Source of the DNA: a virus
Reading direction: 5' to 3' (one strand)
IMG/VR virus record: IMGVR_UViG_3300035701_000011
Span: 1 to 64,000 of that record
DNA: 64,000 nt
Within the stretch, counting starts at the first letter, position 1. Every line of letters starts with the position of its first letter. This document shows positions 2,202-48,713 of the stretch, piece by piece. The translations under genes and the position numbers were made by a program. The notes beneath the pieces are model-generated. The model did no database searches and was not told where the DNA came from. It worked only from the letters and a program-made list of their open reading frames with translations.

Positions 2202-3001
2202 GTAAAATTTTTAAAAAAACAACAATCTTCCAGCACAAAGGTAGATATTTTTTACAAAAATGGTAATCTACCTATATCAAGGGTAGATGTCTTCTGAATT
2301 GAGATTAACTTATGCTTAAAACGCCCTAAAAAGACTGGTTAATCTCTCCTATATAATAAGGAAGACAAAACCTCCTAAAATAAGGTAAAATGGAATAAGA
2401 TGCCTATATATAGGTAGAAGAAGGTAGATGCTAAAAATGGTTATGTATAGTATATTATACATAAATTACAATATAATAGGTAGATAATGGTAGATTGAAT
2501 AAAAACCTACCCATAAACCCCAGATATGCCTCCCAAAAAGCTAAAATTAACCTTCCGTCTATGGATAAACTTGGTTCCCGTAAATAATAGGTAAATTTAA
2601 TATAAGTAATTGATAATAAAAAAGATAAATATAATAATCTTATTCAGCCCGACACACATTAGTAAATTAGACCATATTGTTGTAGGGATTTTTATTGTAA
2701 CATGAGTGAATAGCGAAGGTTATAGAAAATAATTAAATCGAAAGAAAAGTACAGTCTGAGTATCCCTGAATTTTTTGGGTTTTATTGCTAAATTTAACCC
2801 TACCGTCTATAACCTATTGATGTTATTAGGTTTATAATAATTGTATGCCTTTTGAATTAGATTTAACTTATAAGGAGTTAAACTCATTTGAATTATTACA
2901 TATAAACGCTTTTATTTTTTGCGACTATTTTTTTTATAATCACTCAATTAAAACCCTTTTATTATCTTATAGAGTAGTTTAAATTATTTTTTAAAATGAC
3001 C
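2202..3001. other. Non-coding stretch with folded-RNA signatures and GGTAGAT repeats
   Basis: About 800 bp lack any supportable gene. GGTAGAT/ATCTACC motifs recur (near 2240, 2268, 2282, 2432, 2480, 2490). GAGATTAAC and GTTAATCTC (about 2300-2346) form an inverted repeat. Further on, AGGGAT/ATCCCT (2684-2689/2762-2767) and GGTTATAG/CTATAACC (2718-2725/2807-2814) indicate a second folded element. GACCATATTGTTGT at 2670-2683 repeats 1314-1327. AACCTATT/ATTAGGTT follows at about 2811-2832. An origin-like or RNA role is possible; neither is proven. Confidence 0.5.
2478..2497 (+). repeat. 20-bp direct repeat, copy 2
   Basis: This copy is identical to 1573-1592. It is embedded in an AT-rich stretch with a near-palindromic TATAGTATATTATACATA upstream. 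Confidence 0.75.
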
Positions 3002-3029
3002 TTGTAATTTGCTTAAAATGTGTTATACT
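3002..3029 (+). promoter_or_regulatory. First promoter of the rightward early region
   Basis: TTGTAA (3002-3007), a 16-bp spacer and TATACT (3024-3029) with an extended TGT before the -10. It lies 32 bp upstream of the first plus-strand gene and its AAGGAG site. Confidence 0.75.
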
Positions 3030-3060
3030 TATAATGTAGGATAGATAAGGAGATGTTAAA

Positions 3061-3339
3061 ATGGATAATTACAATAAATTTAAAATTGGTAATAAAGAAA
3101 TTGAGGTTATAAAAAACCCCGATTATAGCGATTATAATTATTTAAATAATTTATTTAAGGATAGATATCCTCATTGTTTAAGGGGCGAACCTAAAACCCG
3201 TATAGCGTATGACAAATTTGGCAATCATTATGTATGGCTTGCCGATACAATGCACGAAGAAATAAAAAACTATTTATTAAATAATTTTAATTTGATTATA
3301 AGTAATTACAATATAATAAAAGAGGGTTATAATGATTAG
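3061..3339 (+). CDS. Early-region protein of unknown function (92 aa)
   Basis: First gene of the rightward early operon, preceded by AAGGAG. The middle contains TRIAYDKFGNHYVWLADTMHE, a pattern I associate only with uncharacterised phage proteins. No catalytic motif, membrane segment or zinc site is visible. The end overlaps the next gene by 8 nt. Confidence 0.75.
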   Translation: MDNYNKFKIGNKEIEVIKNPDYSDYNYLNNLFKDRYPHCLRGEPKTRIAYDKFGNHYVWLADTMHEEIKNYLLNNFNLIISNYNIIKEGYND

Positions 3340-3733
3340 AGTATTTATACCAGAGATTAAAAGGAAATTTGGCAAGAGAGATTTAGCGAGGGGTTTCTGG
3401 CGTAGCGATAGCCATAAGATTTTTTATGATTACATTAAGGTTATAAATTATAATCAGAGTATTAGGGGCATTTATTATAAAGATTTATTTTATAATTATC
3501 TTGATACTATTAAGGCAAGTTATAATCAAGAGGCATTATTTTATGTAAATGAAGCCGGGCAAGGCGTAATTTATTATAGCCGAGATAGACAAGAGGTTTT
3601 AAGTAATAGGATTTATAAAGAGGTTTTAAGGGTTAATTTAAAGGTAGAGATTAAAGAGGCGTTAAAGGTATATGGTGGTGTTACTATATATAAGATAGAT
3701 AACAAGTATTTTAAAGAAGTATTCTATAAATAA
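3332..3733 (+). CDS. Early-region basic protein of unknown function (133 aa)
   Basis: A basic, tyrosine-rich protein. Its N-terminus is strongly positive (IKRKFGKRDLARGFWRSDSHK). No family recognised. The start at 3332 overlaps the previous gene's stop and has GAGGG just upstream, which supports translational coupling. Confidence 0.7.
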   Translation: MIRVFIPEIKRKFGKRDLARGFWRSDSHKIFYDYIKVINYNQSIRGIYYKDLFYNYLDTIKASYNQEALFYVNEAGQGVIYYSRDRQEVLSNRIYKEVLRVNLKVEIKEALKVYGGVTIYKIDNKYFKEVFYK

Positions 3734-3745
3734 AGAGATGTTAAA

Positions 3746-3988
3746 ATGGATAACATAAAAGATTTAAGAGAAGCAATTAAAACTATAAGAGATAACAAGG
3801 ATTTTAAGGATATAACCCTAAAGGACAATGTTTATTGTAATTTATTTGGCGATAAACACCCTTTTAAATGTAGAGAAGCAATAAAGGAAGTTATATCTAT
3901 TATAGAGGTAGATATAAATTTATTAAGTTATATCCCGCAAGATATAAGAGAAATAATTAAAGAGGCGGGATATAGTATTTTTAAATAA
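3746..3988 (+). CDS. Early-region helical protein of unknown function (80 aa)
   Basis: Predicted mostly helical, acidic/basic mixed, preceded by AAAGAG. The start repeats the sequence context GAGATGTTAAAATGGATAA seen at the first early gene, which hints at duplication of the leader. No function recognised. Confidence 0.7.
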   Translation: MDNIKDLREAIKTIRDNKDFKDITLKDNVYCNLFGDKHPFKCREAIKEVISIIEVDINLLSYIPQDIREIIKEAGYSIFK

Positions 3989-3999
3989 GAGGTAATACA

Positions 4000-4329
4000 A
4001 TGTTAAGAGAGATTAAATATATTATTGTAAAGGATAAAATAACTGGCCGAGCGAGGCGTTATTGTTCGGAGTGGTTACATCATAGCACAATAGCAAGGGA
4101 CAATGGTTACTCCGACAGCGAGGTTATAGAGGCCGGGCTGTTTTTAGATAAGAGATGTTATATTTTAGAGTGTAAAGATTTAAGGCATATTGAAAGACGC
4201 AAGAGCCGATATATAGGTAATTGCTTAAATTTTTATCAAGATATACGCCTTGCGAATTGGTTACGAGGCCGGGAACTTGAAAGCCAAGTATATTATAGGT
4301 TGCCGGGAATTTTAAAAGAGGGCGATTAA
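4000..4329 (+). CDS. Early-region basic protein of unknown function (109 aa)
   Basis: Rich in Arg (RARRYCSEW, ERRKSRY, RGREL) and possibly nucleic-acid binding; no family recognised. Several GCCGGG words lie within it. It is followed by the next gene after one base. Confidence 0.7.
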   Translation: MLREIKYIIVKDKITGRARRYCSEWLHHSTIARDNGYSDSEVIEAGLFLDKRCYILECKDLRHIERRKSRYIGNCLNFYQDIRLANWLRGRELESQVYYRLPGILKEGD

Positions 4330-4330
4330 A

Positions 4331-4711
4331 ATGATAAAATTATATCATTATAGCAATAAGGATTTTAAGGGGTATATTAAGCCAAGTTTTTTTGGTTTAA
4401 ATAATTATACATCTGCAAGTAAAGAATTAAGCGGATATAAGCGGATTTATTTTTATGCAGATGATAAAAGTAGAGAGTATTTTTTTAATGGTAGTAAGTT
4501 TTTGTATATTGCAGAGATAAAACAAAATAAAGTATATGATTTAAAAATAGATGTTTTAAATTGTATAGGCAATTTTGACAGCATAAGTGAGTTTATATCT
4601 TATATAAGTAGTAAGGGATTTAAGGGATTTAAAGATTTTAATGGTAAACAAGATGTTATATGCTTATTTAAAGCGATAAAAATAATTGATAAAATAACCT
4701 TGACAAGATGA
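4331..4711 (+). CDS. Paralogue family A, copy 1: LYHYS-motif protein
   Basis: 126 residues, clearly paralogous to 5429-5821. Shared positions include IKLYHYS-DFKGYI-P-FFG-N-Y at the N-terminus, the YFY-D...REY-F-G block, YIAEIK in the middle and a closing IKI. The LYHYS opening recalls the first strand of small ADP-ribosyltransferase-like proteins (LYHGT-type motifs), but I see no confirmed catalytic glutamate, so that remains a weak idea. The gene has no recognisable membrane segment. A promoter for the following gene overlaps its stop codon. Confidence 0.7.
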   Translation: MIKLYHYSNKDFKGYIKPSFFGLNNYTSASKELSGYKRIYFYADDKSREYFFNGSKFLYIAEIKQNKVYDLKIDVLNCIGNFDSISEFISYISSKGFKGFKDFNGKQDVICLFKAIKIIDKITLTR

Positions 4712-4728
4712 TTTTTATATGTTATACT
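4700..4728 (+). promoter_or_regulatory. Consensus promoter inside the end of the preceding gene
   Basis: TTGACA (4700-4705), 17 bp, TATACT (4723-4728), with extended TGT. It overlaps the stop of 4331-4711 and drives 4794-5357. Confidence 0.85.
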
Positions 4729-4744
4729 TTTTATATAAAGGGTT

Positions 4745-4767
4745 GCAGTTTATCCTTTGAAAACTGC
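4745..4767 (+). promoter_or_regulatory. 5'-leader hairpin
   Basis: GCAGTTT (4745-4751) pairs with AAACTGC (4761-4767) around a 9-nt loop, in the 5' leader between promoter and start codon. It could stabilise the mRNA or act as an attenuator. Confidence 0.5.
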
Positions 4768-4793
4768 GAGAGTAATAAAAAGTGAGGGATAAA

Positions 4794-5357
4794 ATGTTAT
4801 ACAGAGCAAAAAGCGATAAGGATATTGGCGTAAAGGGTTGTAAAGTGGTGGGAATTGGTGATGTTTTTGGTTATGAATTGATACAAAACTTTTTTGTGGA
4901 CAATAGCGGATTTGGTAGTGATGATGAGCCAGCATTGACTTTTAGCAATTTTTTAACAAAGGTTAAGGCAGGTTATTTTTATGGAATTAGAGATGTAGGG
5001 CAGTTTCAAGTTAATATCGGAGAATTTAAAAAAATAGCCAAGCCAAGAGCCGAGATATTAGCCGAACAGGGAATTGTAAGTAGTAAGTTAATAAAAAATA
5101 ATACAAGGTTGACTATATATAAAAATGGCGACAAAGTTTTGAGGTTACATTCTACGGATATAATAAAATGGCAAGGTAACAAGATTATTTTAAATTCTGG
5201 CGGTTGGGATACAATGACTACAAGGGCAAGGTTTAACGAATTTTTACCCGACAGAATATCTATATTTAGAAAAAAAGGGGTTACTTATATTAAAAATTCT
5301 TTAAAATATCCCGACGAAATTACAGAGTTTAGCGACGGAATAGAGATTAACCTTTAA
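4794..5357 (+). CDS. Conserved phage protein of unknown function with SGGW-TTRAR motif (187 aa)
   Basis: The C-terminal half has the signature LRLHSTDIIKW followed by ILNSGGWDTMTTRARFNEF. I know this only from uncharacterised phage proteins, where the HxTDI and SGGWxTxTT blocks are the conserved part. I chose the ATG at 4794 (GAGGG 6 nt upstream). It has its own promoter and leader hairpin, so it is an independent unit. Confidence 0.75.
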   Translation: MLYRAKSDKDIGVKGCKVVGIGDVFGYELIQNFFVDNSGFGSDDEPALTFSNFLTKVKAGYFYGIRDVGQFQVNIGEFKKIAKPRAEILAEQGIVSSKLIKNNTRLTIYKNGDKVLRLHSTDIIKWQGNKIILNSGGWDTMTTRARFNEFLPDRISIFRKKGVTYIKNSLKYPDEITEFSDGIEINL

Positions 5358-5428
5358 TTTTTAAGGCATAGCAAGGGCAAGGTTACATTATTTTAAGGTA
5401 AGGCATACAATATAAGGGGGCGATTAAG

Positions 5429-5821
5429 ATGATTAAATTATATCATTATTCGAGCCAAGATTTTAAGGGGTATATTGAGCCGGGATTTTTTGGGGCTAAT
5501 AGTTACTCTAATAATTCCGCAAGGTTAAGCGGAGTTAAGCGGAGTTACTTTTACCTTGACCGAGCCGGCCGGGAGTATTATTTTGAGGGGGCAAGATATT
5601 GCTATATAGCCGAGATTAAGGAAAGCCGATTATATAATCTTAACATTGACCCTTTAAAACTGGCCGGGCGTAACATAAGGGATATATTCGCTTATATTAA
5701 GCGGTTAGGTTATAAGGGTTTAATCGGCTCTAATGGATATAAGGACGGGGTTATATTCTACCCGATAAAAATAAAACAGCGTAAGACCTTGACAGAGGCC
5801 GGGCGATATGCTATACTATAA
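5429..5821 (+). CDS. Paralogue family A, copy 2: LYHYS-motif protein
   Basis: 130 residues, paralogous over its whole length to 4331-4711 (IKLYHYSSQDFKGYIEPGFFG; YFYLDRAGREYYFEG; YIAEIK). The two copies flank the SGGW-motif gene, so a local duplication and divergence is the simplest history. This copy is richer in GC words (GCCGGCCGGG) than copy 1. Function unknown. Confidence 0.7.
   Translation: MIKLYHYSSQDFKGYIEPGFFGANSYSNNSARLSGVKRSYFYLDRAGREYYFEGARYCYIAEIKESRLYNLNIDPLKLAGRNIRDIFAYIKRLGYKGLIGSNGYKDGVIFYPIKIKQRKTLTEAGRYAIL
5789..5817 (+). promoter_or_regulatory. Consensus promoter inside the end of the preceding gene
   Basis: TTGACA (5789-5794), 17 bp, TATACT (5812-5817), extended TGC. 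It lies in the last codons of 5429-5821 and serves 5838 onwards. Confidence 0.85.
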
Positions 5822-5837
5822 TCAAAAGGGGGTTACA

Positions 5838-6077
5838 ATGATAAATTTTAAGCAATATATCGGAAAGCGGTTTATAGTAAAGGGATTTAATGAGCCGAGA
5901 GAATTAGAAATTGTAGAGGGTTATTTTTTAGGCAATAATAAGCGATACCCGACTTTTAAGTGTAAAGTTATAACCGATACAAAGTATTTTAAGGTGGGCG
6001 ATAGAGAAAATTTTTTGTATAGGGATATAATTAAGGCCGGGCAGTTAGTAAAAGAAATTAAAGTTTTATCAGCGTAA
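5838..6077 (+). CDS. Early-region small protein of unknown function (79 aa)
   Basis: Starts at MINFKQYIGKRF, the first ATG with a spaced GGGGG site. A longer frame from 5808 would start inside the promoter. Beta-rich with basic patches; no family recognised. Confidence 0.7.
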   Translation: MINFKQYIGKRFIVKGFNEPRELEIVEGYFLGNNKRYPTFKCKVITDTKYFKVGDRENFLYRDIIKAGQLVKEIKVLSA

Positions 6078-6087
6078 GGGGGGTAAA

Positions 6088-6270
6088 ATGTTAGACAGAT
6101 ATAGACAGAATTTAAAAGTTGAGGGTAGCAAAGTATATTCTTATAATACTTTAGTAGCCGAGATTAACAGCGAGGCCGGGGAATTGCGTCAATTAGGTTG
6201 GTGGAGTGTAACTACTCAAAAACATATAAATTATGTAAGCCGGGAATTAGGTTTAAAAATAGTTAAATAA
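6088..6270 (+). CDS. Early-region small protein of unknown function (60 aa)
   Basis: 60 residues ending HINYVSRELGLKIVK, preceded by AAGGGGGG. The TTQKHINYVSRELG stretch is a short helix that phage proteins often carry. No function can be given. Confidence 0.65.
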   Translation: MLDRYRQNLKVEGSKVYSYNTLVAEINSEAGELRQLGWWSVTTQKHINYVSRELGLKIVK

Positions 6271-6286
6271 AAAAAGGGGGTGTAAG

Positions 6287-6592
6287 ATGAAAACATATAT
6301 TGCAAGAGGTTTTGTTTTAGGTAAAAATTGGGGCGGTGGTTTTGGGGCTTATGAAAGCCGAGAAATTAGGGCAAAAAGTAAAGCCGAGTTATTAAAACTG
6401 GCCGAGCAAGATTTAAAAAGTGGGGCGTTAGATAGCGGTATGGGTTTTGAATTTTTAAAGGGGGCAAGGTTGGATATAAAAGAAGTTGACCGGGTTATTG
6501 TAAAGGGTAAAGAATACGAAAGAGCCGAGTATATAACAGAATTTATCGGAAATTTGACAGAAAAAGAGCAAGATTTTTTGTTAGAATTATAA
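6287..6592 (+). CDS. Early-region protein of unknown function (101 aa)
   Basis: Begins with a glycine-rich segment (GKNWGGGFGAYESREI) followed by helices; the spacing to the AAAGGGGGTG site is ideal. No recognised domain. Confidence 0.7.
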   Translation: MKTYIARGFVLGKNWGGGFGAYESREIRAKSKAELLKLAEQDLKSGALDSGMGFEFLKGARLDIKEVDRVIVKGKEYERAEYITEFIGNLTEKEQDFLLEL

Positions 6593-6608
6593 AAAAGGGG
6601 GGTTAAAA

Positions 6609-6728
6609 ATGAGAAAACCTTTTTATAAAATATCTATAATAGGATATTATAAATTATTAAGATATTATGTTATCGGTATTTTAGCCGATATTAGATTATT
6701 TATATTTAAAAAATGGTATAAAATATAA
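6609..6728 (+). CDS. Small hydrophobic/basic protein (39 aa)
   Basis: MRKPFYKISIIGYYKLL... with a hydrophobic core (YVIGILADIRLFIF) and a basic tail (KKWYKI). It is preceded by AAAGGGGGG and sits tightly in the operon, so it is probably a real membrane-associated microprotein. Confidence 0.55.
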   Translation: MRKPFYKISIIGYYKLLRYYVIGILADIRLFIFKKWYKI

Positions 6729-6742
6729 CAAAGGGGGTTGTT

Positions 6743-6931
6743 ATGGGAAATCTTTTTGAATTGGCAGAATTGCAGTTAATAAAAGAGGGGAAAGAGCCGA
6801 CAGAGGCGTTAATTTTAAGCCGGGCGGTTGCTATTAGGCGGTGGTTAGATAAACATAGAGGCATAGCGGACAAGATACTGGCCGGGCGTAAGGTTTATCA
6901 ATATGGGAATAGGTTTGTATGTAGTAAATAA
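6743..6931 (+). CDS. Paralogue family B, copy 1: small helical protein (62 aa)
   Basis: MGNLFELAELQLIKEGKEPTEALIL...RRWLDKHRG...ADKI. It shares its order of motifs (LFELAE, then IRRWLD or IRKWLD, then a KI helix) with 13814-14050 and is a likely paralogue. Preceded by AAAGGGGG. No function known. Confidence 0.65.
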   Translation: MGNLFELAELQLIKEGKEPTEALILSRAVAIRRWLDKHRGIADKILAGRKVYQYGNRFVCSK

Positions 6932-6943
6932 AGGGGGTGGATA

Positions 6944-7162
6944 ATGATTAAAGATTTTAGACCAGAAAAAGATTTATTTAATCAAGGTTATAAAGTAACT
7001 ATTTATAAAACTAAAAAAGAAATTACAGAAATTAGTTTTATAAAGAAAACTAAAACAAAAACTTTAGGCGTAAGTTATGGTTGTGATAGTTTTAAGCAAA
7101 AAGATTTAAGAGATGTTTTTAATTTTATAAAAAATAACGGATATAAATATAGTATCAATTAA
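6944..7162 (+). CDS. Early-region small protein of unknown function (72 aa)
   Basis: Lysine-rich, beta-rich protein with AAAGGGGGTGG upstream. Lower in GCCGRG words than its neighbours. No family recognised. Confidence 0.65.
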   Translation: MIKDFRPEKDLFNQGYKVTIYKTKKEITEISFIKKTKTKTLGVSYGCDSFKQKDLRDVFNFIKNNGYKYSIN

Positions 7163-7179
7163 AAAAAGGGGGGTAAAAA

Positions 7180-7389
7180 ATGGCAAAAAAATTTGATTTA
7201 GTAGGGGCAATTATGAGTTATGAGGCCGGGGAGTTAAGAGGGCAAGAGGTTTTAAGGTTATTTAGCGAGTTAATAAAAAGCGGTAAGGCGTGGAGTTTGC
7301 AAGGGAGTTATGGGCGTATGGCCGGGCGGTTGATAGACGAGGGCTATTTATCAGCAAAAGGCGAGATATTAAAAGAGGTTGAGAAATAA
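7180..7389 (+). CDS. Early-region helical protein of unknown function (69 aa)
   Basis: Predicted all-helical. The pattern AIMSYEAGELRGQEVLRLFSELIKSGKAWSLQGSYGRMAGRLIDEGYL matches a family of small phage proteins of unknown role found widely in phage genomes. Preceded by AAAAAGGGGGG. Confidence 0.75.
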   Translation: MAKKFDLVGAIMSYEAGELRGQEVLRLFSELIKSGKAWSLQGSYGRMAGRLIDEGYLSAKGEILKEVEK

Positions 7390-7457
7390 ACTGACCGGGC
7401 GAGTGTAAGGCGAGGCGATAGCGAGGCAACGTGTATATTATAAGGGGGTAATTTAAA

Positions 7458-7571
7458 ATGAGATATTATATAGTTTATTTTACTACCATAACAAGTTTAT
7501 TAGTTTTTGATACTTTTAAAAATGTATTTGAAAAATTTGGCAGTAAAGTATTATATATAAAAGAGGTATAA
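7458..7571 (+). CDS. Small protein of unknown function (37 aa)
   Basis: MRYYIVYFTTITSLLVFDTF... with a hydrophobic N-terminal half. It has AAGGGGG 10 nt upstream and an uninterrupted frame. The 70 bp before it contain no gene. Confidence 0.5.
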   Translation: MRYYIVYFTTITSLLVFDTFKNVFEKFGSKVLYIKEV

Positions 7572-7572
7572 G

Positions 7573-7677
7573 ATAGAAATTTATTTTATCAAAAAGACCC
7601 GAGAAAATTTTAAAGAAATTAAAGAGTTATATAAAGACCTTAAAAAGAGCCGAAAGGATTTACATAAGTTATTGTAA
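7573..7677 (+). CDS. Possible small protein starting at ATA
   Basis: The frame from 7573 (ATA GAA ATT TAT) to the TAA at 7675-7677 encodes 34 residues ending SRKDLHKLL and shows the local codon style. There is no ATG, GTG or TTG after the upstream in-frame stop at 7558-7560. AGAGG lies 7 nt before the ATA. It may be a gene with a rare start or a decayed remnant. Confidence 0.25.
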   Translation: MEIYFIKKTRENFKEIKELYKDLKKSRKDLHKLL

Positions 7678-8233: not shown

Positions 8234-8262
8234 TTGACAAGACCCGATTTTTATGTTATACT
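8234..8262 (+). promoter_or_regulatory. Consensus promoter
   Basis: TTGACA (8234-8239), 17 bp, TATACT (8257-8262) with extended TGT; drives the SprT-like gene. Confidence 0.85.
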
Positions 8263-8289: not shown

Positions 8290-8685
8290 ATGAGAGCCGA
8301 TAAAATAATAGAGGCAAGACCGATAGCCGAGCAGTTAAGAGATTTAATTTGTAATAAGTATAATCTTAATCCGATAAAAATTAGGGTTAAAGATATTAGA
8401 CAGGGATTTGCTTATTACGATAACCGAGCGATTAGCATACCGATTTGGGCTTATTTAGAGGGATTAGATTATTTTAGGGCTTATGTTTTACACGAATTAG
8501 GGCATTTTATAAATTATGATACTACGGAAACATACGGACATAACAAGAATTTTAAGAGAATAGAAAAAGAATTATTGGCCGGGTTTGGATTAGTGCCTAT
8601 ATATAAGAGAGTTTATATTAAGGCATTAAAAAATGATAAAGGTGATTTAGTATGGTTAAAAAGAGGATATGAAAATGAAATTTAA
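8290..8685 (+). CDS. SprT-like zinc metalloprotease domain protein
   Basis: 131 residues. LHELGHFI (HExxH with the catalytic Glu) lies near residues 77-84 and is followed by a third ligand region, YGHNKNFKRIEKELLAGFG. The spacing HExxH...GHNKxF matches SprT/Spartan-type proteases, which cleave DNA-associated proteins. The protein is shorter than bacterial SprT (about 165 residues) and has no C-terminal zinc ribbon; the next gene, which overlaps it, encodes a separate small Cys protein that could supply one. It has its own promoter. Confidence 0.7.
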   Translation: MRADKIIEARPIAEQLRDLICNKYNLNPIKIRVKDIRQGFAYYDNRAISIPIWAYLEGLDYFRAYVLHELGHFINYDTTETYGHNKNFKRIEKELLAGFGLVPIYKRVYIKALKNDKGDLVWLKRGYENEI

Positions 8686-8905: not shown

Positions 8906-9193
8906 ATGGACAATACCGAAATTAGAAAAGAAATTAAACGACTTAAAAGATTAAAAAAAGATTTGAGGCCGGGAAGTAAAGAACGAATAGAGATTTTTAG
9001 GAAAATTAAAGACCTTAAAAAGCAAAGAGCCGAAATTACCGCAGTAGAGCCGGGCAAAGAGGAATTGATAACCGAAATTTTAAGTATATATGATAAGCAA
9101 AACATTAAGCCGAGATTTGAGGATATAGGGATAGATTTACATATTTATACCATAAAACAATTAGAACTTCATTTAAAAAAGATAAGACCTTGA
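8906..9193 (+). CDS. Early-region highly charged helical protein (95 aa)
   Basis: The N-terminal third is a coiled-coil-like Lys/Arg/Glu helix (EIRKEIKRLKRLKKDL), and the C-terminus is IYTIKQLELHLKKIRP. I use the ATG at 8906 with GAGAGG upstream; a GTG at 8900 is part of that site. Function unknown. Confidence 0.65.
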   Translation: MDNTEIRKEIKRLKRLKKDLRPGSKERIEIFRKIKDLKKQRAEITAVEPGKEELITEILSIYDKQNIKPRFEDIGIDLHIYTIKQLELHLKKIRP

Positions 9194-9218
9194 CAGATAA
9201 AAAAGTATATGTTATACT
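9190..9218 (+). promoter_or_regulatory. Consensus promoter overlapping the preceding stop codon
   Basis: TTGACA (9190-9195), 17 bp, TATACT (9213-9218) with extended TGT; drives the 552-residue gene. Confidence 0.85.
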
Positions 9219-9241: not shown

Positions 9242-10900
9242 ATGATTAAAAAATATCATATAGAAAATACCGACGAAACTTATTTAAGGATATGGCAAAA
9301 AATAAATTTAGGTAAAGAAATTTTGGTTAAAGAATTTTTTGAGGAAAATAAAGTAAATGAAAGTGATGAGAGTTATAGATTAAATGTTTGTCAATATGAC
9401 CCGAATACCCGACTTTTTTATTTAGGTGGTTTTTTATATTGGGTTACTTCTGATGAGGCAATTTATAATTATCTTGATACAGGCCGGGCGGTTAGTTTAT
9501 ATGAGAGAAGTCATTATAGTAATGATAATATAGCGAATTTTTACATATACAATGATTTACTTATTACGGATAAGGATATAATAGATTTTGAAAATTATAA
9601 AGATAAGAAAAATTTAAGTTTAAAAATTTTATCCGAAACTGATACCGAAAAAGTAAATTTAATTTTTAACGAGGATTTAGACAAAATTAAAAGCCGATTA
9701 GCAGAAATCCGAGCCGAAGAAGAACAGATAAAAAAATCAGAAGTAAAAGAAAAAATAGATAATACACAAGAAGAAGAACGATTAGTCAGTTTGATTAGGC
9801 AATATGATAAAATGACTTTATTAGAAGATACAGAGACAATAATTAAGGATAATTATTTTATAGATAAAGACGAGGGATTTAAAATTGAATTTAAAGATAA
9901 AGTTGTAAAACTTTTTAGTAAAAATGATTTAGTAAGTGAAAGTTATTATGGGGGTAATTTTATACAGATAAATTTTAGAAATTTTTTAGATAAATTAGAG
10001 AGAGTTTATAGTCAAGGAAAATACGCCGAACCGATAGAGGAAAAATTAAAAGGATTAAATAAAAAGTGGTTAAGTTTTAAGATTTATTCTTATGATAAAG
10101 AAACAAAAGCCGAAGTATTTTTAAAAGAAATAAAAATAGAAAATAATGTTAATGATAAAAGTAAAAGAAGATTTAAAGTAAATGGCGTAAAAATGCCGAT
10201 ACAAAAAATGGCTAAAGTATTAGAGTTTATTTTAGCCGGGCGTTACGGACACGAAAGGGAAACGACAATAGAGAGATTAACTAACCTTGAAAAGTATTTA
10301 GAGCAGATTAGGTTATATAGCGGAACGCAATTAGAATTATTACAGGGTAAGACCATAGAAATAACTTTAAGTGGAGTTAGAATACCTATACATTTTAATA
10401 TAATGGCAGAGGATAAAGACCGCTGGGAAATTAGTATTGACGATTTTAAGGTAAAGAGAGATTATACCGCAGTAAAAGATAGTTTTAGGTGGTTAAGAGG
10501 TGGTGGTTTGACCGCTATTAGTAAAATTTGCGATACGCTAAAGGCCGGGCAGAAATTAGAGGACATTTTAATAGGTAAGGTAAAAGGTTATGTAGAGAAA
10601 CGCAGATTAGCCGAAGAAAAGGCAGAGAAACTATTTGCAGAATTTTTAGAAAAGAATAAGACCAGAGTATTTAAAAGAGAGGGTGGTTATATTGTAAAGG
10701 GTAAGTTAAAGAATTATTTAGTTAAGATGAAAAATGACGAGGACTGCGGAGTTTGGAGTTACCCGAATAACGAGTATGTATGTATAAATGAAAAAAGTAG
10801 AGCCGGGCAATATCTTTGTAAGGCAGATAAATTATTGCAGTTTTGTCTTGTTATGCTAAACGACGGAAATTTACGCAACGAAATCACAACGATACATTAA
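9242..10900 (+). CDS. Large early-region protein of unknown function (552 aa)
   Basis: The largest early-region gene. It has an N-terminal domain (1-120), a charged helical linker (about 140-190: EIRAEEEQIKKSEVKEKID), a central region containing WLSFKIYSYDKETKAEV and a C-terminal block (about 470-552) with GGYIVKGKLKNYLVKM, CGVWSYPNNEYVCI and LLQFCLVMLNDG. The C-terminal block with two spaced cysteines recurs in phage proteins of unknown role. No ATPase, polymerase or nuclease signature is present. It has its own promoter and heads a unit with 10913-11074. Confidence 0.75.
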   Translation: MIKKYHIENTDETYLRIWQKINLGKEILVKEFFEENKVNESDESYRLNVCQYDPNTRLFYLGGFLYWVTSDEAIYNYLDTGRAVSLYERSHYSNDNIANFYIYNDLLITDKDIIDFENYKDKKNLSLKILSETDTEKVNLIFNEDLDKIKSRLAEIRAEEEQIKKSEVKEKIDNTQEEERLVSLIRQYDKMTLLEDTETIIKDNYFIDKDEGFKIEFKDKVVKLFSKNDLVSESYYGGNFIQINFRNFLDKLERVYSQGKYAEPIEEKLKGLNKKWLSFKIYSYDKETKAEVFLKEIKIENNVNDKSKRRFKVNGVKMPIQKMAKVLEFILAGRYGHERETTIERLTNLEKYLEQIRLYSGTQLELLQGKTIEITLSGVRIPIHFNIMAEDKDRWEISIDDFKVKRDYTAVKDSFRWLRGGGLTAISKICDTLKAGQKLEDILIGKVKGYVEKRRLAEEKAEKLFAEFLEKNKTRVFKREGGYIVKGKLKNYLVKMKNDEDCGVWSYPNNEYVCINEKSRAGQYLCKADKLLQFCLVMLNDGNLRNEITTIH

Positions 10901-10912
10901 AAAGGGGGATAT

Positions 10913-11074
10913 ATGGAAGGAAAAAAGATATTATCAATAGACGAAATGACCGAGAAAATAGAGAGATTAGGGCATAGGGCGGTTTGGAATTTGATAGAAA
11001 AGATAGGGAATTGGCAAGACCGAATTGCATATAGACAATTATTCTTTCTGACCGGGGGCAGTTTAGATGATTAG
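10913..11074 (+). CDS. Small protein of unknown function (53 aa)
   Basis: MEGKKILSIDEMTEKIERLGHRAVWNLIEKIG..., predicted helical. AAAGGGGG lies 6 nt upstream. It ends in TAG, one of the rarer stops here, just before the Ubl promoter. Confidence 0.6.
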   Translation: MEGKKILSIDEMTEKIERLGHRAVWNLIEKIGNWQDRIAYRQLFFLTGGSLDD

Positions 11075-11078
11075 GGGC

Positions 11079-11108
11079 TTGACAGATAGCAATAAGGTAT
11101 GCTATACT
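11079..11108 (+). promoter_or_regulatory. Promoter of the Ubl/E1 pair
   Basis: TTGACA (11079-11084), 18 bp, TATACT (11103-11108) with extended TGC. It starts 5 bp after the preceding gene's stop. Confidence 0.85.
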
Positions 11109-11143
11109 TATAGTAGAAGATACAAAAAAGAGGGGGTGTTAAA

Positions 11144-11341
11144 ATGATTAGGGTAATAGTATTAGATGAGAGTGGAGATACAAGGTTAGAAGTGGCAACG
11201 ATAGACGAATTAAAGGCAAAGGTTGACTTAAAAGATAAGTTTATTTTTGCTGATAATAAGTATATCAACGAAGTTACTCTTGACGGAATTACTCAATTAC
11301 CGAGAGAAATAGTAGTTACCGAAAGACTAATTGGTGGCTAA
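11144..11341 (+). CDS. Ubiquitin-like beta-grasp protein ending in Gly-Gly
   Basis: 65 residues. Strand IRVIVLD, strand TRLEVAT, helix IDELKAKVD, strands KFIFADNKY and EVTL, and a last strand REIVVTERL lead to the terminal residues Ile-Gly-Gly. This order and the exposed C-terminal Gly-Gly are what ubiquitin, ThiS and MoaD share: the C-terminus is adenylated by an E1-like enzyme. The next gene encodes exactly such an enzyme. Size fits ThiS/MoaD (65-80 residues). The module has a dedicated promoter and an AGGGGG site. Whether it is conjugated to a target protein or acts as a sulfur carrier cannot be told. The fold is inferred from the pattern, not computed. Confidence 0.7.
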   Translation: MIRVIVLDESGDTRLEVATIDELKAKVDLKDKFIFADNKYINEVTLDGITQLPREIVVTERLIGG

Positions 11342-11367
11342 ATTCTCTCGTAAGGGTTGACCTAAAC

Positions 11368-11402
11368 GAGTGGGGTTAGCCGAAGAAGTTATAATCCCAC
11401 TC
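11368..11402 (+). promoter_or_regulatory. Hairpin between the Ubl and E1 genes
   Basis: GAGTGGGGTTA (11368-11378) pairs with TAATCCCACTC (11392-11402), 11 bp including one G-U, around a 13-nt loop. The following TGTCTTTATAAAA is only mildly T-rich. It could be a partial terminator or processing site setting the Ubl:E1 ratio. Confidence 0.55.
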
Positions 11403-11432
11403 TGTCTTTATAAAAAATTAAAGGAGTAAAAG

Positions 11433-12023
11433 ATGAAAGATAATCTAAAAATAGCAGTAATAGGATTAAACGGAATAGGTAGTTATTTTGTCAGGGGTTT
11501 ATCCGAGTTAATTAAAAAAGATGTGGCCGGGCTTGACAGAATAAATGTTATGGGTATAGATTTATTTGATTTTGATACCATAGAAGAAAAGAATTTTAGT
11601 TATACCATTTATGATATTGAGCATATTGGAAGAAATAAGGCAGAAGTAATGGCAGAAATGACAGGGTATAAGGCAAGAGCCGAGAAAATAGAGAGAGCCG
11701 AGCAGTTAGCCGAGTATGACCTTGTTATTATGGCAGTAGATAATAATGAAGTGCGAAAAATTGTTTATGAGGCCGGGAGACCATTTATTGATTTAAGGGC
11801 TAAAGGTAAGGCAGTTATGGTATATTTGACACAAAAAGACGATATAGAATACCTTAATTTGACAAAAGATACAGGGGAAAAGGGCGGTTGTCAGTATGAT
11901 AGGGATATAGAAGAAAAGACCATTGAACTTGGAAATCGTGTGGTTGCGGAATTAGGTTTGCAGTATTTAATTGACTATTGTAGGGGTAAAATAGAAAAGA
12001 AGAATACGATTTTAATGATTTAA
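11433..12023 (+). CDS. E1/ThiF-like adenylyltransferase (Ubl-activating)
   Basis: 196 residues with a Rossmann start IAVIGLNGIGSYFV (residues 7-20), the nucleotide-binding acid block IDLFDFDTIEEKNF (42-55; Asp48, Asn54), GRNKAE (67-71, the conserved Lys region) and IMAVDNNEVRK (99-109; Asp103, Arg108). These are the conserved elements of ThiF/MoeB/E1 enzymes, which adenylate the C-terminal Gly of a ubiquitin-like partner. Cys153 (GGCQYD) is a candidate for the thioester/persulfide cysteine. It is shorter than ThiF (about 245). It lies 92 bp after the Ubl gene in the same unit. No E2 or JAB protease was recognised nearby. Confidence 0.8.
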   Translation: MKDNLKIAVIGLNGIGSYFVRGLSELIKKDVAGLDRINVMGIDLFDFDTIEEKNFSYTIYDIEHIGRNKAEVMAEMTGYKARAEKIERAEQLAEYDLVIMAVDNNEVRKIVYEAGRPFIDLRAKGKAVMVYLTQKDDIEYLNLTKDTGEKGGCQYDRDIEEKTIELGNRVVAELGLQYLIDYCRGKIEKKNTILMI

Positions 12024-12214: not shown

Positions 12215-12391
12215 ATGCAAAGAAACATAGTGAGGTTAGCATTAAAGTTAAAAAAAGAACTGCAAGAGGATATTCTTAATAGATATGATAATAGCGAGTA
12301 TTGGGAAACGCAGGTTGCAGATGATTTTTATAAGGATAATAAAGTAAATGATGATGAGGCACAAAAGATTATAGAGATTTTAGAATTATAA
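12215..12391 (+). CDS. Small acidic helical protein of unknown function (58 aa)
   Basis: MQRNIVRLALKLKKELQED... ending IIEILEL. Preceded by AAAGGGGG. A structured RNA element begins 1 nt after its stop. Confidence 0.6.
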   Translation: MQRNIVRLALKLKKELQEDILNRYDNSEYWETQVADDFYKDNKVNDDEAQKIIEILEL

Positions 12392-12392
12392 T

Positions 12393-12473
12393 TTTTTAGA
12401 GTAAAGCGAAAGTAGGGAACATAAAATTTTAGGGATAATACCCTAAACGAAGAAATCTCTACCACTCTAAAAA
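12393..12473 (+). ncRNA. Compact three-helix RNA element, 81 nt
   Basis: Three nested helices are visible. P1 is 393-402/464-473 (10 bp, TTTTTAGAGT/ACTCTAAAAA). P2 is 412-418/456-462 (7 bp with one G-U). P3 is 428-434/441-447 (7 bp, ATAATA loop), all in the 12,000s. Purine-rich internal loops (AAAGCGAAA; ACATAAAAT opposite CGAAGAAA) separate them. It lies between two small genes, 20 nt before the next start codon. This could be a cis-regulatory leader or a processing element; no known riboswitch class was recognised. Confidence 0.5.
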
Positions 12474-12492
12474 TTAAATAAAGAGGTTAAAA

Positions 12493-46824: not shown

Positions 46825-47012
46825 TGATTCCAATTGCTTTTGATGAAAATACTATAGATTTATTAGATAAAACAAAAATTGCTTGGACTAAAATGATAGA
46901 AAGAAGTATAATTTCAAAGGTTGAACATATTTTTTTAGCATTAAAATGGGATTTATCACTTATTAAGGAAATTAAACCTAAAAAAGAAAGAAAAAAGAAA
47001 TGCATTATATAG
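46824..47012 (+). CDS. Family-B DNA polymerase, detached C-terminal tail (62 aa)
   Basis: MIPIAFDENTIDLLDKTKIAWTKMIERSIISKVEHIFLALKWDLSLIKEIKPKKERKKK. The order VIxFDE, then a helix, then W-KMIER-I--K-E-I--AL-WDL is the usual end of family-B phage polymerase thumbs. It continues where the main fragment ends (YWWIYYVD). The tail could re-associate with the main chain. It is a fragment, not an independent enzyme. Confidence 0.72.
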   Translation: MIPIAFDENTIDLLDKTKIAWTKMIERSIISKVEHIFLALKWDLSLIKEIKPKKERKKKCII

Positions 47013-47749
47013 TTAGTTATTCAGGTGGAAAAGATTCAACTGCGATGCTTATAAGACTTATAGAAGAAAAAAGACCTATAGATGAAATTTTATTTTTTGA
47101 TACAGGATGGGAATTTTCTGCTATTTATTCTACAGTTAAAAAAATCGAAGAATATATTAAAAGACCTATTGTTTGGCTTAAACCTGAAAAATCTTTTGAA
47201 TGGTACATGTATCAGAAATCAAATAAACGTGGATTAGGTTTAGGATTTCCTCGATTTAATATTCGTTGGTGTACAGGTTTAAAGAAAAATACGATTAAAA
47301 CATATTTAAAAGATAAAAAACCATATATTAACTATCTCGGTCTTACTAAAGGAGAAGAATATAGAGCAAAAAGATATGCAGATGATAAAACAATATTACT
47401 TCCTTTAATTGAATGGAAAATGACAGAACAAGATTGTTTAAATTATTGTAAAAATAAAGGATTTGATTTTGAAAATCTTTATAGTTGTATGAGTAGTGCT
47501 TCATGTTGGTGTTGTCCTTTGCAACCTATGACATCATTAAGAGGTTTATATAAAAATTTTCCCGATTTATGGAAAAAATTATTAGAAATGCAATCTAAAA
47601 CTAAAAGTGCTTTTAAAGTGGGTCATATTAATAATAAAAAAGGAAAAGATAGATTTCCTCCAATTTATGTTACAGATTTAGATATTCGTTTTAAAAAAGA
47701 AATAGAAGATGGAACATTTAATAAAAAAATGCAAAAGAAAAATGACTAA
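47000..47749 (+). CDS. PP-loop ATPase, PAPS reductase-like (249 aa)
   Basis: The PP-loop is VSYSGGKDST (residues 5-14). LFFDTGWEF (about 31), FPRFNIRWCTGLKK (about 89-102) and CMSSASCWCCPLQ (about 158-170) give the Cys-rich active region. Phage members are often near DNA-modification or queuosine-like genes. It may activate or transfer sulfur or adenylate a substrate. It overlaps the polymerase tail by 13 nt and the second PP-loop gene by 8 nt. Confidence 0.78.
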   Translation: MHYIVSYSGGKDSTAMLIRLIEEKRPIDEILFFDTGWEFSAIYSTVKKIEEYIKRPIVWLKPEKSFEWYMYQKSNKRGLGLGFPRFNIRWCTGLKKNTIKTYLKDKKPYINYLGLTKGEEYRAKRYADDKTILLPLIEWKMTEQDCLNYCKNKGFDFENLYSCMSSASCWCCPLQPMTSLRGLYKNFPDLWKKLLEMQSKTKSAFKVGHINNKKGKDRFPPIYVTDLDIRFKKEIEDGTFNKKMQKKND

Positions 47750-48713
47750 TAAAATTCAAATCTGGGAATTAAAACAAAGACAGTCATTACCTTTAGAAGC
47801 TAAAATAACTTTGGCTAAAACAAGAATAGAACAATTTCATACAAAAATGGATGGTAATGTATGTGTATCTTTTTCTGGAGGTAAGGATAGTACCGTTCTT
47901 CTTCATTTAGTAAGGTCAATTTATCCAGATGTTAAAGCAGTTTTTGTTAATACAGGACTAGAATGGCCGGAAGTGGTGCAATTTGTCCGAGAAACTGAGA
48001 ATACAGAGATTATACGTCCCGAGATGACTTTTAAAGAGGTCTTAGATACTTATGGTTATCCAGTTACTAGCAAAAAGATTGCCAAAATGATTGATACTCT
48101 ACAAAATCCCACAAAAGGAAATAAAGTTATTAGAAATCTTTATTTAACAGGTATTAGGGGAGATGGCAAAAAAGCAACTGGAAGTTGGAAGGTACCAAAG
48201 AAGTGGAGATTTTTAATTAAGGCTCCTTTTAAAATTTCCGACCAATGTTGTGCAGTTATGAAAAAACAACCATTTAAAGAGTATACTAAAAAGACAGGAT
48301 TACACCCCTATGTTGGCACACAAGCAGCAGAAAGTAGATTAAGAGAAATTTCTTATTTACAGTATGGATGTAATTCTTTTAAAGGTAAGATTCAATCCAG
48401 ACCTTTAAGTGTTTGGTTTGAAGATGATATTTGGACATATATTAAGAAGTTTAATTTAAAGTATGCTACCATCTATGATAAAGGTCAGAAAAGAACTGGA
48501 TGTATGTTCTGTATGTTTGGTACACATTTGGAAGATGAACCAAATAAATTTCAATGTATGGCAAAGACACATCCGCAACTTTGGAATTATTGTATTAATG
48601 AAATAGGTGTAGGTAAAGTATTAGATTATATTAATGTACCTTATAAATTATTAGAAAATAGTACAAATGATGGACAACCTGACCATGAATTACCAATTCA
48701 TGAACTGGAGTAA
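47742..48713 (+). CDS. PP-loop ATPase, PAPS reductase/DndC-like (323 aa)
   Basis: 323 residues. The PP-loop is VSFSGGKDST (about 42-51), then VNTGLEWPEVVQF, KISDQCCAVMKKQPF and the zinc/Cys site GCMFCMFG (about 260-267). This is a larger PAPS reductase-like paralogue of the one before. Tandem PP-loop pairs occur in phages; a nucleic-acid thiolation or modification role is one possibility, but no DndD/E partners are present. Confidence 0.8.
   Translation: MTNKIQIWELKQRQSLPLEAKITLAKTRIEQFHTKMDGNVCVSFSGGKDSTVLLHLVRSIYPDVKAVFVNTGLEWPEVVQFVRETENTEIIRPEMTFKEVLDTYGYPVTSKKIAKMIDTLQNPTKGNKVIRNLYLTGIRGDGKKATGSWKVPKKWRFLIKAPFKISDQCCAVMKKQPFKEYTKKTGLHPYVGTQAAESRLREISYLQYGCNSFKGKIQSRPLSVWFEDDIWTYIKKFNLKYATIYDKGQKRTGCMFCMFGTHLEDEPNKFQCMAKTHPQLWNYCINEIGVGKVLDYINVPYKLLENSTNDGQPDHELPIHELE

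Follow-up and report, generated by a model that had tools for sequence, protein, structure and literature searches.

A ubiquitin-like protein and an E1/ThiF-type enzyme as the candidate activation core of a virus-encoded protein-conjugation module

Described systems and the viral locus

Bacterial operons in which genes for a ubiquitin-like protein (Ubl), a JAB protease, an E1, and an E2-like protein occur together were described by Iyer et al. in 2006, and a function in protein tagging was proposed for them (PMC1779556). Tagging by Ubls in bacteria has so far been associated mainly with host antiviral defense (CBASS and Bil) or with plasmid operons; in type II CBASS, Cap2/Cap3, a pair consisting of an E1-E2 and a JAB protein, is used for conjugation (PMC10097602). 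JAMM deSAMPylases are found on Borgs, archaeal mobile elements of which one has its own SAMP (PMC12660748). The RaFAH paper (PMC8276007) describes a ThiF-family gene (“MoeB”) that is prevalent in predicted archaeal viruses and links it to ubiquitination. A magrovirus survey makes no mention of ubiquitin, ThiF, or JAB, and the open-access literature searched held no published description of the viral Ubl, the large partner protein, or the module reported here.

The locus lies in the window, a stretch of 64,000 nucleotides that is part of a 97,145-base virus record. Both ORFs named in an earlier note on this DNA are present on the plus strand: the gene for a 65-residue Ubl (11144..11341), whose product has the mature C terminus LIGG (RLIGG with the preceding residue), and the gene for a 196-residue E1/ThiF-type activating enzyme (11433..12023) with the motifs GLNGIGSYF and DFDTIEEKN, the residues D103 and R108, and C153 as the predicted thioester cysteine. 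That note overlooked a recognizable partner just upstream of the pair, a 552-residue protein (9242..10900, plus strand) identified by neighborhood conservation, which has a conserved C-terminal domain and the conserved residues Cys514 and Asp529. A small ORF of 53 residues (10913..11074, plus strand), conserved in the three close viruses, separates this large gene from the Ubl gene.

By E1 homology, the closest described system is that of the PRTRC plasmids (operon type 6d in PMC1779556). PRTRC ThiF (TIGR03736) is the best NCBIfam model for the window E1, and a profile-profile comparison of the two gave an E value of 5.5e-26. Both systems have a small Ubl with a C-terminal Gly and bring JAB and E1 together, and the viral JAMM is related to PRTRC A (E 3.5e-6). 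In contrast to PRTRC, no B-type E2 and no F homolog was detected in the viral module, and the neighboring place is held by the unrelated large protein. The viral E1 is shorter and has Tyr-Gln or Tyr-Thr where PRTRC has Arg-Gln, while the viral Ubl ends in Gly-Gly and PRTRC C, with which no alignment was possible, mostly ends in Lys-Gly; the Ubl was considered as a PRTRC C homolog and rejected for want of profile support. With a TIGR03736 score of 44 bits against a cutoff of 144.75 and no homology to B, C, or F, the locus falls outside the PRTRC system. As a separate observation, two of the eight PRTRC plasmids read (L094 and L097) carry PAPS-reductase genes 2 to 5 kb from the PRTRC ThiF gene.

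The module shares with Cap2/Cap3 of CBASS and with the Bil/6A systems the logic of an E1 and a JAMM that conjugate and deconjugate a protein with a C-terminal Gly. However, Cap2 unites E1 and E2 in a single polypeptide and uses cGAS as its tag, whereas in the viral module the E1 stands alone and the Ubl is a protein of its own; the 196-residue enzyme matched the PADLOC defense E1-E2 and BilD models weakly, and we do not assign it to type II CBASS or Bil. Borg JAMMs were explained as removing host tags (PMC12660748), while the viral module brings its own Ubl and E1. The ThiF-family E1 of the RaFAH paper probably belongs to the same enzyme family as the viral E1; in its available part, that paper (PMC8276007) does not report a Ubl, a JAMM, or a large partner.

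The cultured phages crAss001, FpV4 (Flavobacterium), and PhiXhv-15 (Xanthomonas) have related E1 genes that carry a thiamine biosynthesis annotation. crAss001 encodes a ThiF (gp76), a JAMM (gp77), and a Ubl-like protein (gp79), and in both crAss001 and FpV4 the JAMM gene adjoins the E1 gene. The E1 of crAss001 and FpV4 is homologous to the one studied here (profile E 1.4e-24), and a small beta-grasp-like N-terminal stretch can be recognized by eye. On the other hand, the Ubl part in these phages is extended and has no free Gly-Gly end, the other partner proteins differ, and no profile link was found between their Ubl group and that of the window. The segments concerned are 3244-7654 of crAss001 (L099), 2613-6624 of FpV4 (L089), and 2733-6612 of PhiXhv-15 (L090), all with a ThiF-type E1 and a Ubl-like stretch and the first two with a JAMM; they also encode a neighbor whose HSH/HPH...C-G motif resembles an E2 on visual inspection, with no profile support. 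Searches of annotated phage records gave no direct matches to the window sequences.

The Ubl, the E1, and the large partner protein

The small protein had been called beta-grasp-like from its letters, and structure prediction agreed. Its AlphaFold model (pLDDT 74) has the elements E2-8, E11-17, H20-26, E32-36, E39-41, and E55-60, which is the beta-beta-alpha-beta-beta order of the beta-grasp fold, and the best 50 PDB matches were all ubiquitin, SUMO, NEDD8, ISG15, or FAT10-type chains (top match E 4.7e-3, probability 0.99, TM about 0.47). We regard this as moderate evidence for a beta-grasp fold in a protein that belongs to no Pfam family and had no convincing match in Pfam, NCBIfam, or PHROGs. 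The C-terminal Gly-Gly (G64 and G65), on whose conservation the modifier reading had been made to depend, was invariant in all 52 non-redundant homologs, as expected of a modifier; among background small ORFs, a Gly-Gly within the last five residues was seen in 18 of 398 (4.5 %). The tail that follows it is absent in 25 of the 52 Ubls and consists of one residue in 11, two in 15, and three in 1. In the window virus and its two close relatives, the Ubl already ends in Gly-Gly.

Gene order is kept in two IMG/VR viruses (109,585 and 96,496 bases), with amino acid identities of 82 and 70 % for the Ubl and 64 and 61 % for the E1, and further homologous pairs were found by profile, so the pairing goes beyond chance. 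At the codon level, the Ubl has a dN of about 0.10, with dS close to saturation (about 2.8), and is under strong purifying selection.

Assignment of the second protein to the ThiF/E1 superfamily, whose Rossmann-type adenylating domain is marked by GxGGxG, D-x-D, and a catalytic Lys and Asp, was confirmed by Pfam (PF00899, 39.6 bits, cutoff 28.1) and by the invariance of D46, D48, K69, D103, R108, R122, C153, and Q154 in all 99 relatives; the sites for the nucleotide and for Mg are conserved in the family. Cys153 aligns with the SC motif of PRTRC, which is consistent with a thioester-forming E1. We are cautious about the predicted activity of the window copy because position 13 in the nucleotide loop, a Gly in 98 of the 99 sequences, is in this copy alone an Asn. 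Matches to the ThiF equivalog models were weak. MoeB and ThiF typically have a paired CxxC zinc motif and carry the Arg of an RQ motif; the window E1 lacks the zinc motif since it has only two cysteines, and its family has a tyrosine (Tyr57) at the place of that Arg.

In the large protein, Cys514 is conserved in 94 of 95 sequences and Asp529 in all 95, and the family adjoins the Ubl, E1, or JAMM genes in most related loci. The shared domain was modeled with a pLDDT of 81. Foldseek gave no PDB counterpart for the model, which did match two unnamed viral models, with E values of 5e-6 and 3e-5. No convincing match was found in Pfam, NCBIfam, or PHROGs, nor a profile match to PRTRC B or to the crAss001/FpV4 neighbors. 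The predicted order of helix, four strands, Cys, and helix was suggestive of a classical E2, a reading that we rejected as no E2 was found among the best 50 PDB fold matches, by Pfam, or by profile. The earlier note had seen no JAB, sulfurtransferase, or E2-like gene nearby, and the searches of the 97-kb record indeed found no JAB, no rhodanese, and no E2 of the PF14460 type that a Ubl conjugation pathway would lead one to expect. It is possible, if rather doubtful, that the conserved-Cys protein founds a class of Ubl transferases distinct from UBC and not seen before, and that the viruses thereby encode a complete Ubl-E1-transferase pathway, usually with a JAMM, that is unlike any characterized one and is spread across bacterial and archaeal viruses.

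The dedicated promoter noted ahead of the pair is real as a sequence: a sigma-70-type TTGACA-18-TATACT with an extended -10 (TG) stands at 11079..11108 on the plus strand, 5' of the Ubl gene, and one of the same class stands 5' of the large partner gene (9190..9218, plus strand). The window holds five perfect copies of this type (starts 4700, 5789, 8234, 9190, and 11079), all on the plus strand and within the first 11 kb, while shuffled sequences gave about 0.9 matches per spacing even with two mismatches allowed. At 11079, the -10 TATACT is kept in the two closest relatives (L002 and L003) and the -35 in L003. The cluster resembles an early-gene region read by the host polymerase. The gap between the Ubl and E1 genes (11342..11432, plus strand) contains an RNA hairpin (stem about 11368-11402) that alignment found conserved in L002 and L003, where both partners of base pairs have changed, and that gave folding z scores of -1.9 in the window and -3.0 in L002; it is a possible element of expression or processing. 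A second intergenic hairpin was seen at 12388-12478 (z -4.2). Neither hairpin matched an Rfam family, apart from one subthreshold BsrC match at 12437.

Distribution of the module and the JAMM protease

A first round of profile scans of viral contigs returned 78 E1 relatives, and a later one 315, from which the 80 best were retained. Among the 123 distinct E1 loci that were counted, 37 combine all four genes, for the Ubl, the large protein, the JAMM, and the E1; the large protein, JAMM, and E1 occur together in 73, that is, in 36 beyond the 37 with all four; and the Ubl, large protein, and E1 in 9. The Ubl was detected in 49 of the 123; some of the missing ones are explained by divergence or by a position outside the flank that was fetched. 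The JAMM residues H, H, S, and D were invariant in all 89 sequences, and in one locus (L133) the E1 and JAMM matches fall on one ORF. The hosts of the module include both archaeal-type viruses and bacterial phages: a TFB-like gene, typical of archaeal viruses, sits between the large protein and E1 genes in many loci, while L009, L010, and others have the tight order large-Ubl-JAMM-E1 with genes for DNA polymerase or a sigma factor alongside, a setting typical of bacterial phages. In cellular genomes, the narrow E1 profile found nothing and the broad one found 45 loci, several of them in archaeal or Omnitrophota bins and some possibly viral. The module is real, widespread, and partly anticipated, and two of its families are undescribed.

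A JAMM/deubiquitinase-type partner is thus present in most members. In the window virus and its two close relatives, neither Pfam nor a viral JAMM profile detected one; the Pfam search did match two related viruses, and the set searched with the viral profile included no positive genome. The E1 tree groups the window branch with the JAMM-less loci L105-L108 at modest support (0.77-0.79), inside a JAMM-rich group. A reasonable reading is that the JAMM was lost together with the change to a Ubl that needs no trimming, and the records may be incomplete. The association between Ubl tail and JAMM (24/15 versus 3/9) is weak, and its counts ignore kinship. The “minimal self-contained” modifier of the earlier note has to be revised, as in homologous loci the large protein is nearly always encoded as well and a JAMM usually is; because its relatives have these partners, we view the window pair as one branch, lacking the JAMM, of a more extensive module.

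Two further observations concern the JAMM-less loci. L105, L107, and L108, with the arrangement large-E1-Ubl, come from contigs that were assigned to Aenigmatarchaeota, Omnitrophota, and Methanoperedens bins and may be viral or plasmid, and in L105 and L107 an ATPase gene follows. In the window, a candidate SprT-like metallopeptidase with HELGH (8290..8685, plus strand) scored 19.2 bits with PF10263, below the cutoff of 25.6, and its membership in the module is uncertain. It is preceded by a promoter of the same class (8234-8262); L002 has the HELGH as well, and L003 has HEIGH within a protein. It could take the role of the absent JAMM, or its substrates could be DNA-protein crosslinks.

Probable protein tagging and the competing explanations

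On balance, the pair is probably the activation core of a virus-encoded Ubl protein-conjugation module that is expressed from an early-type promoter and transfers the Ubl to target proteins, and the most likely function of the module is covalent protein tagging early in infection. The E1 would adenylate Gly65 of the Ubl and then bind the Ubl through a thioester at Cys153, from which the Ubl would be passed on, probably via Cys514 of the large partner or else directly, to amino groups of host or viral proteins; as no E2 fold was found, the route through Cys514 is an inference. The JAMM of most family members may trim the tail of 0-3 residues after Gly-Gly, remove the tag, or do both. Since the Ubl of the window virus and its closest relatives has a Gly-Gly end that needs no processing, and no JAMM was detected in these viruses, their tagging would be irreversible or would depend on a host protease for its reversal.

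An alternative is that the Ubl is a sulfur carrier like ThiS, MoaD, CysO, or QbsE: the E1 would adenylate its C terminus, a donor would convert this to a thiocarboxylate, and the sulfur would go to a small molecule, a tRNA, or a DNA base. The E1 does belong to the ThiF family, with its weak equivalog matches, and a JAMM is compatible with this chemistry, since JAMM proteases also trim Ubl tails in the known sulfur systems QbsD/QbsE and Mec/CysO. PAPS-reductase-family genes are present in the window virus, as two adjacent PP-loop genes at 47000-48713, and in one other module virus (G001). However, the family is absent from 14 of the 16 module viruses, the close relative G002 included, and rhodanese, a sulfurtransferase partner expected with ThiS/MoaD, is absent from all 16. 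Moreover, the window E1 has no CxxC zinc pairs, and the constant partner is the large protein and not anything recognizable as a sulfur acceptor. The possible link that the earlier note drew with the PP-loop ATPases (47-48.7 kb) is weak, and its ThiS/MoaD-like system gained no positive support. Conjugation is preferred because the constant partners are the JAMM and the conserved-Cys protein, while rhodanese occurs in 0 of 16 viruses and the PAPS-reductase family in 2 of 16; sulfur carriage is less likely, and as a full account of the pair we consider it unlikely.

Less probable again is that the large protein is the target and not the transfer enzyme, in which case the Ubl, possibly linked to Cys514 or to a lysine, would act as its switch in early infection. 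In favor, the large protein is the most constant neighbor besides the E1, and its Cys (94/95) and Asp (95/95) are retained, but a near-invariant single Cys together with an invariant Asp resembles an active site more than a lysine acceptor. Very improbable is a counter-defense decoy, in which the viral Ubl or E1 disturbs host Ubl-based immunity (Bil, type II CBASS) with no conjugation of its own: the early-type position of the genes and the weak E1 matches to defense E1-E2 and BilD models fit it, but the invariant catalytic residues and Gly-Gly favor an active enzyme, and the family is also present in archaeal-type viruses.

The occurrence of the module in dozens of distinct bacterial and archaeal viruses suggests that viruses run their own ubiquitin-style tagging. 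If this is true, a virus-borne Ubl and E1, often with a JAMM, would mean that prokaryotic viruses use protein tagging themselves, with two undescribed protein families, the viral Ubl and the large conserved-Cys protein; the module would also be a compact natural system, protease-free in some branches, for direct study of conjugation chemistry and targets. Genetics is feasible because related modules are present in the cultured phages crAss001 and Flavobacterium FpV4.

Two other features of the window were recorded. Two paralogous ORFs (4331-4711 and 5429-5821) start with IKLYHYSxxDFKGxIxPxFFG and by this motif look like an ADP-ribosyltransferase-type fold; in L003 (892-1938), such an ORF is fused to a HEIGH metallopeptidase-like region. 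On the minus strand, positions 1-170 have short repeats that encode a Gly-Pro-rich (collagen-like) sequence, and collagen-like ORFs follow the module in L002 (9872) and L003 (10204).
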